Positions 51,067-55,375 of a stretch of 64,000 bases of DNA are shown in pieces. The stretch is from Polyangiaceae bacterium. GTDB taxonomy: Bacteria > Myxococcota_A > Polyangia > Polyangiales > Polyangiaceae. Each line of letters begins with the position of its first letter. Position 1 is the first letter of the stretch. The position numbers and the translations under genes are program-made. A model generated the notes under the pieces. It worked only from the letters and a program-made list of their open reading frames with translations, was not told the origin of the DNA and did not search any database. The DNA lies in contig CANJMI010000001.1 of NCBI GenBank assembly GCA_947475525.1, positions 1 through 64,000 on the forward strand, given 5' to 3'.

Positions 51067-51618
51067 ATGTCGGGCGCCATGAGCGTTATGAACGAACGGA
51101 CACAGACCACCGCCGGGCCACTCGCGCGGCGGCTCGGAAAGGGCCTCGGGTGGGCGGCCGCGCTCGGCTCGCTGCTTTGGGTAGGCTCGCGAACCGTACC
51201 GCGGGTGTTCGCGCCACCTGTCGAAAGGGCAAAAGCGGTAGCAGAAGTCACCCCCCTGGGCGTCGCCACGGTGCCCGCAACCGTGTTGGCCGCGCTGCCC
51301 GCCACGGGGCTGGTCCCACCGTGCAAAGACGGCATGCGCGTCGAAGGCGGGGTGCTCGCGGACGGTCGTGTCGTGCTCAATCGCGCCGGCATCACGGATT
51401 TGATGGAGCTGCCGGGCGTTGGCGAGAAACGTGCGCGGGCGATAGTCGCCTTGCGCGAGCGTGTGGGGAAGTTTCGGAGTCTCCGGGACCTGCTGCGCGT
51501 GCGTGGGATCGGGGCGCGTATGTTGCGGCGACTCGAATCCAAAGCGGTGCTCGACGCGCCGAGCGAAGGGGTTGATGAGCACGCCAAGGCGCCCGAAAAC
51601 GTAGGGAGGGGCGCGTGA
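51067..51618 (+). CDS. Membrane-anchored ComEA-like helix-hairpin-helix protein
   Basis: 183 residues. One membrane helix lies near residues 27-43 (GLGWAAALGSLLWVG), with the rest outside or periplasmic. From about 103 to 160 a double helix-hairpin-helix DNA-binding unit follows: VLNRAGITDLMELPGVGEKRARAIVALRERVGKFRSLRDLLRVRGIGARMLRRL. The layout matches ComEA-type DNA receptors for uptake of DNA, although no competence gene is near. DNA uptake is an inference from the fold. The start could also be the ATG at 51079 or 51088. Confidence 0.85.
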   Translation: MSGAMSVMNERTQTTAGPLARRLGKGLGWAAALGSLLWVGSRTVPRVFAPPVERAKAVAEVTPLGVATVPATVLAALPATGLVPPCKDGMRVEGGVLADGRVVLNRAGITDLMELPGVGEKRARAIVALRERVGKFRSLRDLLRVRGIGARMLRRLESKAVLDAPSEGVDEHAKAPENVGRGA

Positions 51619-51641: not shown

Positions 51642-52958
51642 TCAGCGGGATGGCAGCGGCGACGCGCTCGGACTCGCCGATGGGTGAGTCGGTGCCGAAG
51701 CCTTGGGCGGGTAGGTGACCTTCATGTCCACATCGATGAGCACGGTCTGGCCGGAGATAAGCTCGATCGAGCGCGTTTCATCGGGAGCCGAGGGATGCCG
51801 CAAAATCACGCTGTGCTTTCCGGGGGAGACGGCGAGCGGCGCGCCGATCGGCGTCACGTCGATGCGCCTGCCATCGACGATGAGCTCTGCCCACGGCCGC
51901 GCGAGTACGCGAAGGTGGCCCGACTCATCGAGAACGCCGCGGGCCCCGGTCGGACCGTCCTCGGCGGCATCCCCGCCAAGGCGCCAAACGAGCGCCCCAA
52001 CGAGGACGAGCGCCCCAACGCCAGCGAGCAGAGCGAGCGAGCGCGGCACCTGGAGCGCGGGGAACGCAGAGCCGCGCACGGCCTTTCGATCGAGCGGTTC
52101 GGGGAGCCCTTCGCCAAGTCCGATCTCCGCGAGCACCCGCGCGACGAGGACGTCCGACGGCAGCGAGGTCTCTTGGCGCAGCGAGCGCGTCAGCCGGGCC
52201 GCAACCGACGCGAGATCGGGGAATCTGTCGTGGCGGCGCTTCTCGAGGCAACCCATCACGATGGCCTGCAACGAAGACGGAATGCGCACTGCTTTTTCGC
52301 CGAGAGGCAACGGCGGCGCGTGGCGGACACGCTGGCTTACGCCCTCACGATCGCCCTCGAACGGGCTCCTGCCAGTCAGCATCCGATAGAGAAGCCCACC
52401 GATGAGGAAAACATCGCTCCGAGCATCGGCCTCGTCCCCGATGATCTGCTCCGGCGACAAGTACTCCGGCGCATCGAGATCGCTCGGACCGGGCTCCGCC
52501 GCGACGGGTGCATGAAGGCAAACGCCACCTTGGGCCGTGAGCTCGACCATCGACGGACGCCACGCGGCGTGCGAACCCCCAACCCGGTGCAGCGCACCGA
52601 GCCCGAGCGCGACCTCAATGGCGATGGCCATCGCAGACGAAGGCGCGATCCGCGTCGCTTGCCGCAACACCGCGTCGAGGCGATGCCCCGCACGATCGAC
52701 GAGCACGAGCGCAGGAGTGGGCCCGTCACGCAGGACCTCGATCAAGGTCGGCCAGGCCGGGTGTCGAAGGGCCCCGAACACCTCGATCTCGCGCTCGAGG
52801 GCACGCGCCGCCGGAGCCACGTTCGTCAGTCCGGGCTTCGCTGTCTTGATAAGCACGCTCGGTTCACGACCGCGTCGCGCCCGGAGCGTTACGACGAGCC
52901 GCTCGACGGAGACCGTCTCCAGGACCTGATACGGACCGACGGCTTCGTTTTCCATCAT
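51642..52958 (-). CDS. PEGA-domain pseudokinase
   Basis: 438 residues from ATG 52958, which overlaps the gpmI-like stop (ATGA); the frame extends to 53000. Residues 1-270 have a protein-kinase fold: a lysine in VLIKTAKPG, then LSPEQIIGDEADARSDVFLIGGLLYRMLTG and FPDLASVAARL. But there is no Gly loop, the HRD region reads SHAAWRPSMVEL without the catalytic Asp, and there is no DFG. It is therefore a pseudokinase. A membrane helix (about 325-342, LALLAGVGALVLVGALVW) and an outside PEGA domain (AELIVDGRRIDVTPIGAPLAVSPGKHSVIL) follow. It may sense or scaffold rather than phosphorylate. Confidence 0.9.
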   Translation of the reverse strand: MMENEAVGPYQVLETVSVERLVVTLRARRGREPSVLIKTAKPGLTNVAPAARALEREIEVFGALRHPAWPTLIEVLRDGPTPALVLVDRAGHRLDAVLRQATRIAPSSAMAIAIEVALGLGALHRVGGSHAAWRPSMVELTAQGGVCLHAPVAAEPGPSDLDAPEYLSPEQIIGDEADARSDVFLIGGLLYRMLTGRSPFEGDREGVSQRVRHAPPLPLGEKAVRIPSSLQAIVMGCLEKRRHDRFPDLASVAARLTRSLRQETSLPSDVLVARVLAEIGLGEGLPEPLDRKAVRGSAFPALQVPRSLALLAGVGALVLVGALVWRLGGDAAEDGPTGARGVLDESGHLRVLARPWAELIVDGRRIDVTPIGAPLAVSPGKHSVILRHPSAPDETRSIELISGQTVLIDVDMKVTYPPKASAPTHPSASPSASPLPSR

Positions 52959-54586
52959 CCCCGAATGAGGAGTGACCGGCCGGTCATCTCTTGGGGGCAC
53001 TCGAGTGCAAGCACGTCGAGGATCGTCGGTGCGACGTCAGCGAGACCGCCTCCCGCTCTCAGGCTTGCGCCGTCGAGCCCATCGCAGACGAGAACGAACG
53101 GAACGGGATTCGTCGAATGGGGACCCTGGGATCGACCCCGGCTATCTTGGAGCGCTTCGCAACCTCCGTGGTCGGCGGTAACCACGAGCGCCCCGTTTGC
53201 GGCAGCGGTAGCCTTCACGATCGTACCGAGCGCCACATCGAGGGCTTCGAGCGCGAGCTTCGTCGCGTCCCGATTTCCGGTCCCCGCAACGCGTTCCGCG
53301 CTCCCGAGGTGGACGAAGATGACGTCATGCTGCCCAGCTTCAATCGCAGCAACGGCGCGCTGCGCAACCCGCGCGATGTGGAGCTCGGGTTTTTCATCGT
53401 AGCGTTCGATGAGCTTCGGCGACGGGACGCTCTCGCGGAACTCACCCTCCACGGGAAGTTCGCGACCACCACCGAAGAACGTGGTCGCGTGGTCGATGCG
53501 ATCGGACTCAAAGATACGAAGCTGCGTGCAGTGAGCACGCGCGAGCACCTCGCCCAAGCAAGCCGCACTCGGCGCACGCGGGAACGCGACCGGAAGCGAG
53601 AGCGCGCTCGAACTCCGCGCGAGCGTGCCGAGGCAATGCTCACGAAACGCACGAACCGGGTGATGCCGATCCATCAATAGATCGCTCACAATTTCGTCCG
53701 GCAAGCCGTCTCGGCCGAGGAGCTGCGTCAGCTGGCGGAGGCCATCGCCTCGATGGTGGAAGACGAGACCGCAATCCTCACCCGTCCACTCCCACACGGG
53801 CGGCGTTCCGCTAAAATCGCACAAGAAGTCGCCGCGCAGCCCTTGGTACTCACCGATTCGCGTGGGCTCGACGTACGCATCGGTAATGCCCTGCCCGTAG
53901 GCGAGGCTCAGCGCATCAAACACCGTCTCGGACCGCTGTGCCGTCGGGCCGAGTACGTTGTCCCGAACGATCGCGTGGAACGCACAGTGGACGCGATCCC
54001 AACGCCCGTCGCCGTCCATCGCATAGTGGCGCCCCGAGACCGTGCCGACAACCGCGTTCTTGCCCTCGAGATGCAGCTGCAACCGATCGAGGAGCGAGGC
54101 CGCGCTCTTCGGCGGAGTGTCGACGCCATCGAGGACCGCGTGAATGACGACCGGTATCTCGTGGAATGCAGCGAGATCGACGAGGGCGAGCAGGTGCTCG
54201 AAGGAGCTGTGTACGCCCGCGGTCGACACGAGTCCGATGAGGTGGAGCGGGGAGGCGTCGTAGACGGCGAGTTGCATCAAGCGGTCGAGCTCGACGTTGT
54301 GGCCATGCTTGTTGGCGGCAATGGCGTCGTCGATGACCACGCGCGTGCTTTTGACGATGCGCCCCGCGCCAAGCGTAAGAAGGCCGGCCTCTCCAGAACC
54401 GCGTGCTCCCTCGGGCAGTCCGACGCTCACGCCGCTCGCCGCAAGCGAAGTCGAGAGCCCCCGAGCGCGCAGCTCGACGAGCACGGGCATCCGGGCCGCC
54501 AGAACCGCGTTGCCCTCAGCTGGCTCGGCGACACCGATCCCGTCGAGCACGGCGAGCACGAGCGGGCGGGGTCGAGGAGGGGTCAT
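52955..54586 (-). CDS. Phosphoglycerate mutase (iPGM)-like protein with degenerate active site
   Basis: 543 residues, close to the usual 510-540 of 2,3-bisphosphoglycerate-independent phosphoglycerate mutase. Family landmarks are clear: VLAVLDGIGVAEP, GLPEGARGSGEAGLLTLGAGR, GVHSSFEHLLALVDLA, AMDGDGRWDRVHCAFHAIV, PSPKLIERYDEKPE and VVTADHGGCEAL. But key sites are changed: the catalytic Ser of GNSEVGH is Gly (GSGEAGL, Ser one place earlier), the FANPDMVGHTG metal site reads LGSAERVAGTG (Asp to Glu and His to Gly), and the ETEKYAH lysine is Arg (ESDRIDH). The DH of TADHG and the final His remain. Mutase activity is thus doubtful. It may be a pseudoenzyme or have a new activity. Confidence 0.9.
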   Translation of the reverse strand: MTPPRPRPLVLAVLDGIGVAEPAEGNAVLAARMPVLVELRARGLSTSLAASGVSVGLPEGARGSGEAGLLTLGAGRIVKSTRVVIDDAIAANKHGHNVELDRLMQLAVYDASPLHLIGLVSTAGVHSSFEHLLALVDLAAFHEIPVVIHAVLDGVDTPPKSAASLLDRLQLHLEGKNAVVGTVSGRHYAMDGDGRWDRVHCAFHAIVRDNVLGPTAQRSETVFDALSLAYGQGITDAYVEPTRIGEYQGLRGDFLCDFSGTPPVWEWTGEDCGLVFHHRGDGLRQLTQLLGRDGLPDEIVSDLLMDRHHPVRAFREHCLGTLARSSSALSLPVAFPRAPSAACLGEVLARAHCTQLRIFESDRIDHATTFFGGGRELPVEGEFRESVPSPKLIERYDEKPELHIARVAQRAVAAIEAGQHDVIFVHLGSAERVAGTGNRDATKLALEALDVALGTIVKATAAANGALVVTADHGGCEALQDSRGRSQGPHSTNPVPFVLVCDGLDGASLRAGGGLADVAPTILDVLALECPQEMTGRSLLIRG

Positions 54587-54616: not shown

Positions 54617-55375
54617 TCAACCTTCAGGGGCGGGTACCGGAGCGCGAGTGCGCGGCATCACCTTTCGCTGCGAACCACGGTGGGATATCGAGTCCCGTGC
54701 GAGCACGTCGGCGCGCTCGTTGAGTTCGACACCCGCGTGACCCGGAACGTAGCGAAGCTCGACCTTGCGACCGACGATGCTGCGACGAAGCTCAGCCACA
54801 AGCTCGGTGTTCGCTTTGGCTTTCCAACCTTGCTGAACGACGCCGATCGCGTAGCGACTGTCGGTATAAACCACGAGGGGCATCGCAGGATCGATAGCCT
54901 CGATCGCACGGAGCACGGCGGTCAGCTCGGCCACGTTGTTCGTCGCGTGGCCAAGGTACTCGGAGAGCTCGATGCGCTCGCCTTCCGTGACGACAACGAC
55001 ACCGAGGCCGGCGGGACCAGGATTTCCCGAGCAGGCGCCGTCGCTGTACGCGAGTGCCGAATTGGGCGCGGGGCTCGTCGGTGGCTTACCCGATGGCGCG
55101 GTCGAACCTTTGGCGGCGCTTGCCGAGCCGCCTTCACGAACCGCGGGAGCGCCTTTCGGTGCGTCGCGCTTCACTTCTTCGGCGGGGTTGCACGTATCCT
55201 CCGGAAGCACCGTCGGATCGAGGATGACGACGTTCGAGGTGACCGCGCGGTAGAGTCGCCCGTCACGCTGCTGGTAGCGAATCTCGACGCGCCCGCCGGC
55301 GCTGACGAGGCCGCCGGCTTCATCCACTCTCGCGAAGACCTTCGTCCCTCGCACGTTGGCACGCACCCACGGCAT
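54617..55375 (-). CDS. rnhA: Ribonuclease HI with extra N-terminal domain
   Basis: 252 residues. The catalytic part, residues about 105-235, has all four acidic residues: YSDGACSGNPGPAG, NNVAELTAVLRAI, VYTDSRYAIGVVQQGWKAKAN and PGHAGVELNERADVLAR. It cuts RNA in RNA-DNA hybrids. The first 65 residues (MPWVRANVRGTKVFARVDEA, VEIRYQQRDGRLYRAVTSN) form a small beta-rich domain that does not match the hybrid-binding domain of eukaryotic RNase H1; an acidic and Ala-rich linker follows. It lies 2 bases after bolA and 30 bases before the gpmI-like gene. Confidence 0.94.
   Translation of the reverse strand: MPWVRANVRGTKVFARVDEAGGLVSAGGRVEIRYQQRDGRLYRAVTSNVVILDPTVLPEDTCNPAEEVKRDAPKGAPAVREGGSASAAKGSTAPSGKPPTSPAPNSALAYSDGACSGNPGPAGLGVVVVTEGERIELSEYLGHATNNVAELTAVLRAIEAIDPAMPLVVYTDSRYAIGVVQQGWKAKANTELVAELRRSIVGRKVELRYVPGHAGVELNERADVLARDSISHRGSQRKVMPRTRAPVPAPEG

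Follow-up and report, generated by a model that had tools for sequence, protein, structure and literature searches.

A GpmI-like gene and a PEGA pseudokinase gene, both with degenerate catalytic motifs, form a conserved pair in a myxobacterial family

The gene pair and its two products

The window (the whole stretch of DNA analysed, 64,000 nucleotides) contains a GpmI (iPGM)-like gene and, downstream of it on the minus strand, a gene for a Hanks-type pseudokinase (Table 1). The stop codon of the former is a TGA at 52957-52955 and the start codon of the latter is an ATG at 52958-52956 (GGGATGATGGAA), which is immediately followed by a second ATG. This recomputed geometry bore out the two open reading frames and the overlap described in the original prediction. 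The RNase H-domain gene is a co-directional neighbour in the genus of the window species and may lie on one transcript with the pair. On the other side, a helix-hairpin-helix (ComEA-like) gene (51067-51618, plus strand) converges on the pseudokinase gene, a position conserved within the genus.

Table 1 Features of the gene pair and associated genes. Positions are those of the window, except for the LysM protein, given as genome:contig:positions.
Feature	Position	Strand	Basis
RNase H-domain gene, about 30 nt upstream of the mutase-like gene	54617..55375	-	PF00075, spacing
GpmI (iPGM)-like CDS, 543 aa, catalytically dead by motif	52955..54586	-	TIGR01307, PF06415, PF01676, AlphaFold, VIA-align, residue table
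Degenerate nucleophile motif ARGSGEAGL replacing QMGNSEVGH; S62 position is Gly	54380..54406	-	
Degenerate metal motif LGSAERVAGTG replacing YANPDMVGHSG; D403 to E, H407 to G	53276..53308	-	
ATGA overlap of mutase-like stop and pseudokinase start	52955..52958	-	Sequence, geometry recomputed
Hanks-type pseudokinase, one TM segment and PEGA-like domain, 438 aa	51642..52958	-	PF00069, motif table, PEGA-profile orthology
HAAWRPSM replacing the catalytic HRDxKPxN motif	52548..52571	-	
Predicted transmembrane segment, residues 307-325	51984..52040	-	Hydropathy maximum 2.31 over 19 residues
PEGA-like domain, PWA..DG..TP..G.H..HP.A..R	51717..51914	-	Orthologue profile, invariant columns
LysM protein of the window genome, single-copy; orthologous to the gene after the PEGA kinase in outgroups	G000:C13:51869-52696	-	

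The mutase-like protein scored 394.1 bits on the NCBIfam GpmI equivalog TIGR01307 (cut-off 330.65) and also matched PF06415 and PF01676. Its AlphaFold model, built from 44 sequences, had a pLDDT of 88.9 and was aligned by VIA-align to 1EJJ with Z 49.8 and rmsd 1.7 over 501 residues at 35% identity; 1o99, also in the structure comparison, is an S62A mutant structure. Fifteen residues were then tabulated with the numbering of 1EJJ. Seven were changed in the window protein (S62G, R153V, R191G, R264G, K336R, D403E, and H407G), and eight were kept (D12, H123, D154, R185, R261, D444, H445, and H462). The serine and the metal residues of GpmI are required for mutase activity. In the window protein, the two-metal site formed by D12, S62, D403, H407, D444, H445, and H462 is incomplete owing to the three changes S62G, D403E, and H407G, and the nucleophile S62 is likewise Gly in L034 and L035. 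All 15 residues were kept in 77 of the 79 GpmIs of other bacteria and archaea among the matches listed, the remaining two showing one single change and one sequence read in pieces; the S62 position was Ser in every readable control outside the family among these matches. Judged by its motifs, the window mutase-like protein is catalytically dead. Since its equivalog score exceeds the cut-off, automatic annotation would call it an active mutase, and annotations of phosphoglycerate mutases can therefore be in error in these genomes.

Alternatively, the protein might still be enzymatically active within the alkaline phosphatase superfamily and have acquired a new substrate, as D12, D444, H445, and H462 remain. 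However, it has neither the nucleophile serine nor the original residues at D403 and H407, and the serine next to the nucleophile position in its motif is absent from the close relative L035 (ARGNGEAGH), which makes this reading extremely improbable.

The kinase fold of the second product was recognised by PF00069 (42.3 bits, cut-off 31.7, E 7.6e-11), and PknB models matched too. The HRD motif is replaced by HAA and the DFG region is deleted, so that both catalytic aspartates are absent, whereas the VLIK lysine and the alpha-C glutamate are kept. A single strong hydrophobic stretch begins at residue 307. The most invariant part across relatives is the PEGA-like C-terminus, which in the window protein fits the orthologue profile at 116.9 bits; Pfam PEGA (PF08308) matched 11 of 26 orthologues (best E 3.8e-4) and did not match the window protein by itself. 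No PASTA domain was seen in the kinase. An AlphaFold model of the pseudokinase, built from two sequences, had a pLDDT of 36.9 and was discarded. By motif, this protein is also catalytically dead; the earlier description of the two products as a pseudo-mutase and a pseudokinase thus agrees with the residues missing from both.

Conservation of the pair and loss of the mutase active site

In 31 of the 34 genomes of the window species' family in which gene order could be judged, the kinase gene directly followed GpmI downstream on the same strand, three further genomes having been set aside because GpmI was at contig ends. The linkage was missing in G015 and G056, where GpmI is present without the kinase, and in G020, where GpmI is unlinked. 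In the 31 pairs, the kinase start was found from -8 to +36 nt relative to the mutase stop, often as ATGA or GTGA, and the overlap of the window is one such variant. From genus to genus, neighbouring genes such as those of the SDR, RNase H, and TPR types change position or orientation or are absent, whereas the order and spacing of mutase and kinase hold. As a control, genome contigs, mostly of unrelated bacteria, were scanned with a profile of the GpmI alignment. A kinase stood beside GpmI in none of the 79 loci of other organisms within the fetched flanks, among the matches listed; the sole pair among these matches was that of Polyangium sp. 6x1, whose mutase is likewise dead. The family includes Polyangium, since L099 is closely similar to L048 and L046. 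The second, distant GpmI type (type-B) of the same family had no adjoining kinase. On this evidence of gene order, the pair is a conserved syntenic, operon-like unit inherited by descent in the family containing Polyangium, and the window genome carries it in a degenerate form. The question raised by the original prediction, whether the two genes are neighbours in related genomes, is therefore answered in the affirmative for this family; across Myxococcota the expectation held in part, the kinase alone being class-wide and the adjacency of GpmI being found only in one family.

In many genera of the family, the motifs of both partners are kept and both proteins look active. An intact mutase accompanies a degraded kinase in six genomes (G048, G007, G022, G021, G059, and G011), a dead mutase accompanies a kinase retaining HRD and DFG in G017 and G058, and both are degraded in other pairs, including that of the window genome. 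In G053, the kinase beside an intact GpmI (L054:9153-10127, plus strand) ends after the kinase domain; its motifs are intact, the TM segment and the PEGA end are gone, and the genome has no LysM protein.

The state of the linked GpmI was compared with the presence of another phosphoglycerate mutase (GpmA or a second GpmI). Such an enzyme was found in 13 of 13 genomes with a dead linked copy versus 1 of 23 with an intact copy, namely G048 (Fisher about 1e-8, phylogeny being ignored in the test). Of the 13, ten encode a GpmA that scores above the TIGR01258 cut-off; in the other three, G027, G033, and G050, the additional enzyme is the second GpmI type. The GpmA of the window genome scored 362 bits and carries RHG and AAHGN motifs. 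Furthermore, GpmA or a second GpmI is present and the linked GpmI absent in many other genera of the family. On starred branches of the RpoB tree, the intact G048 is nested in a dead group, and the intact G007 and G022 group with the dead G033, G035, and G042 and the Polyangium-like G017 and G058. This nesting indicates at least four separate losses, if active sites were not regained. The lost catalytic residues differ between lineages, H445 alone of the 15 being kept in all dead copies. In the GpmI tree the dead copies grouped together; a single origin was not adopted, because the RpoB and kinase trees split these copies and the grouping can be read as a possible long-branch effect. Taken together, the motif and tree comparisons show that, where another mutase was present, the linked GpmI either disappeared or had its active site degraded, on at least four separate occasions. 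In the window lineage, the loss came after other enzymes took over the glycolytic step. As a separate observation, G030, which also has a GpmA, encodes a circularly permuted GpmI in one open frame (L074:4776-6389, plus strand), in which residues corresponding to 206-506 of 1EJJ are followed by those corresponding to 1-212 and the GNSEVGH and DHG motifs are kept.

We also considered whether the dead copies are useless relics in slow decay, as in the genera already without this GpmI. Family members with another mutase have indeed often lost the linked GpmI completely, and the dead copies evolve faster, as seen in branch lengths of the GpmI tree and in dN/dS values above those of most intact pairs (0.06-0.09, one pair 0.40). 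However, all 13 dead copies are full-length without stops, and all five species of the window's genus keep the gene. The dN/dS between the window species and relatives with the same losses was 0.11 (closest pair) and 0.24, well below 1, and that among three Polyangium-like genomes with a dead copy was 0.25-0.43. The equivalog score and the high-confidence predicted fold also speak against decay, which we regard as distinctly improbable. The reading frames and substitution ratios show the dead GpmI genes to have stayed open and under purifying selection after the loss.

The original prediction suggested a signalling pair, in which a phosphoglycerate-like metabolite bound by the mutase-like protein would pass its state to the pseudokinase. 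In favour of this idea, the window protein retains the fold, H123, D154, R185, R261, and part of each metal site. It is weakened, however, because half of the substrate residues are gone: R153, R191, R264, and K336 are changed together with S62, and other losses occur elsewhere. Since substrate or metal residues were lost differently between lineages, with H445 the only common survivor, no common ligand site is kept, and we consider a ligand-sensing pair very unlikely.

Pairwise distances of mutase and kinase correlated with r 0.72 (31 genomes), while those of mutase and kinase against a flanking gene gave 0.22 and 0.39 and those of two flanking genes with each other 0.81. Flanking genes served as controls in place of RecA, whose paralogues may be mixed. 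With outliers removed and the neighbour gene controlled, the mutase-kinase correlation fell to 0.25-0.42 in small subsets; a shared tempo of the two proteins is thus suggestive. A strict co-decay was rejected, since kinase motifs are degraded also in many genomes without linked GpmI, so that kinase decay does not track the state of GpmI.

These data also bear on the possibility that the two products are co-regulated without contact, the operon being shared by ancestry and the dead GpmI moonlighting separately. In favour of this explanation, some genomes have the kinase without GpmI or GpmI without the kinase, and shared ancestry can account for linkage within a single family. On the other hand, the order and spacing of the pair stay while its neighbours rearrange, and the distances of the two proteins correlate better mutually than with those neighbours. 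We judge co-regulation alone to be unlikely.

The older kinase system and the LysM protein

When genomes were searched with a profile of the PEGA end, nearly every family member, with or without linked GpmI, yielded a single match that stood out, and many families of the class yielded single matches of lower score. In 20 additional loci, taken from outside the family but within its order and class, the kinases have intact HRD and DFG motifs, and no GpmI was found near the kinase. By these matches, the kinase is older than the gpmI linkage and is a class-wide, single-copy protein. In family genomes without linked GpmI, the kinase often stands beside the same upstream genes, which indicates that gpmI was probably lost from the site. 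Many genomes that no longer have the linked GpmI still carry the kinase at this site, so the kinase does not need GpmI.

The next gene after the kinase encodes a periplasmic LysM protein in most of the 20 outgroup loci and in several family members. LysM is a peptidoglycan-binding domain. The protein is single-copy in 50 of 54 genomes and is missing from G015 and G056, which have no kinase, from G053, whose kinase has no PEGA end, and from the less complete G025. In the window genome, its gene is at a separate locus (C13), away from the pair. The co-occurrence of the PEGA end and the LysM protein, together with their adjacency in most outgroups, points to an envelope-sensing module that gpmI joined later; we infer from these patterns that gpmI was joined to a LysM-PEGA-kinase envelope module in the family.

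Proposed mechanism and comparison with known systems

Neither window enzyme can act, judged by motif, and a complex is the most likely remaining role; that both genes are intact and side by side despite dead sites suggests a pair that is now non-enzymatic. In the ancestral state, the LysM protein and the PEGA domain would provide information on the cell wall, and the kinase domain would phosphorylate its co-translated neighbour GpmI, thereby tuning lower glycolysis (PEP supply). By analogy with PrkC-Pgm and Pkn4-PFK, described below, the ancestral kinase probably phosphorylated its GpmI. With another mutase present, the linked GpmI disappeared or lost its active site, as the sequences show, and in an inner clade the kinase lost its catalytic motifs too. 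At present, the mutase-like protein would be a non-catalytic subunit docked on the kinase-like cytoplasmic domain, and the wall-facing PEGA domain would control a protein-protein output (scaffolding or sequestering) and not phosphorylation or mutase flux. The explanation as a whole, from an ancestral wall-sensing kinase acting on GpmI to a present non-catalytic mutase-kinase complex, is the best we can offer and seems to us evenly balanced between right and wrong. Against it weigh the retention of the kinase in genomes without linked GpmI, the decay of kinase motifs irrespective of the GpmI state, the occurrence of GpmI without the kinase in G015 and G056 and unlinked in G020 and other families, the drop of the distance correlation in the controlled subsets, and the separate locus of the LysM gene in the window genome. 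That a class-wide LysM and PEGA-kinase module took gpmI as a dedicated cytoplasmic partner, and that the complex was kept as both became pseudoenzymes, is a tentative proposal to which we give somewhat less than an even chance.

If the proposal is true, signals would pass through a complex of two catalytically dead proteins, the enzyme docked on the kinase. The pair may connect the envelope with lower glycolysis in myxobacteria. One syntenic unit offers a natural series that runs from two intact partners, through an intact mutase with a dead kinase and a dead mutase with a kinase keeping HRD and DFG, to two dead partners; the non-catalytic contribution of a glycolytic enzyme to its kinase can thereby be tested. 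The descent from active enzymes, the covering of the catalytic step by another mutase, and the LysM protein as the older partner of the kinase are points that the original prediction had missed.

Our literature search found no relevant paper on PEGA kinases or pseudokinases in myxobacteria. The GpmI/iPGM of Geobacillus stearothermophilus (1EJJ) has the same two-domain fold over the whole length of the window protein; in contrast to 1EJJ, the window protein has a changed catalytic serine, two changed metal ligands, and several changed substrate residues, and the window genome has GpmA. In the part of Foster et al. 2010 (PMC2964296) available to us, iPGM is displaced by dPGM, the distribution of GpmA and GpmI is patchy, and two iPGMs are given for Sorangium. 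The patchiness through gene displacement resembles that seen here; a retained, catalytically dead GpmI and a link to a kinase are not described in that part of the paper. Pkn4 of Myxococcus xanthus phosphorylates PFK (Nariya and Inouye 2002, as listed in PMC6213207). It likewise ties a Hanks kinase to a glycolytic enzyme in a myxobacterium, although the enzyme is PFK. We know of no pseudoenzyme form of Pkn4-PFK. In Bacillus spores, PrkC is reported to regulate Pgm by phosphorylation (PMC12029333). In both systems, a wall-facing transmembrane Hanks kinase is tied to a phosphoglycerate mutase. Unlike PrkC-Pgm, the present system has PEGA and LysM where PrkC has PASTA, its two genes are adjacent, and both partners in the window are dead by motif.
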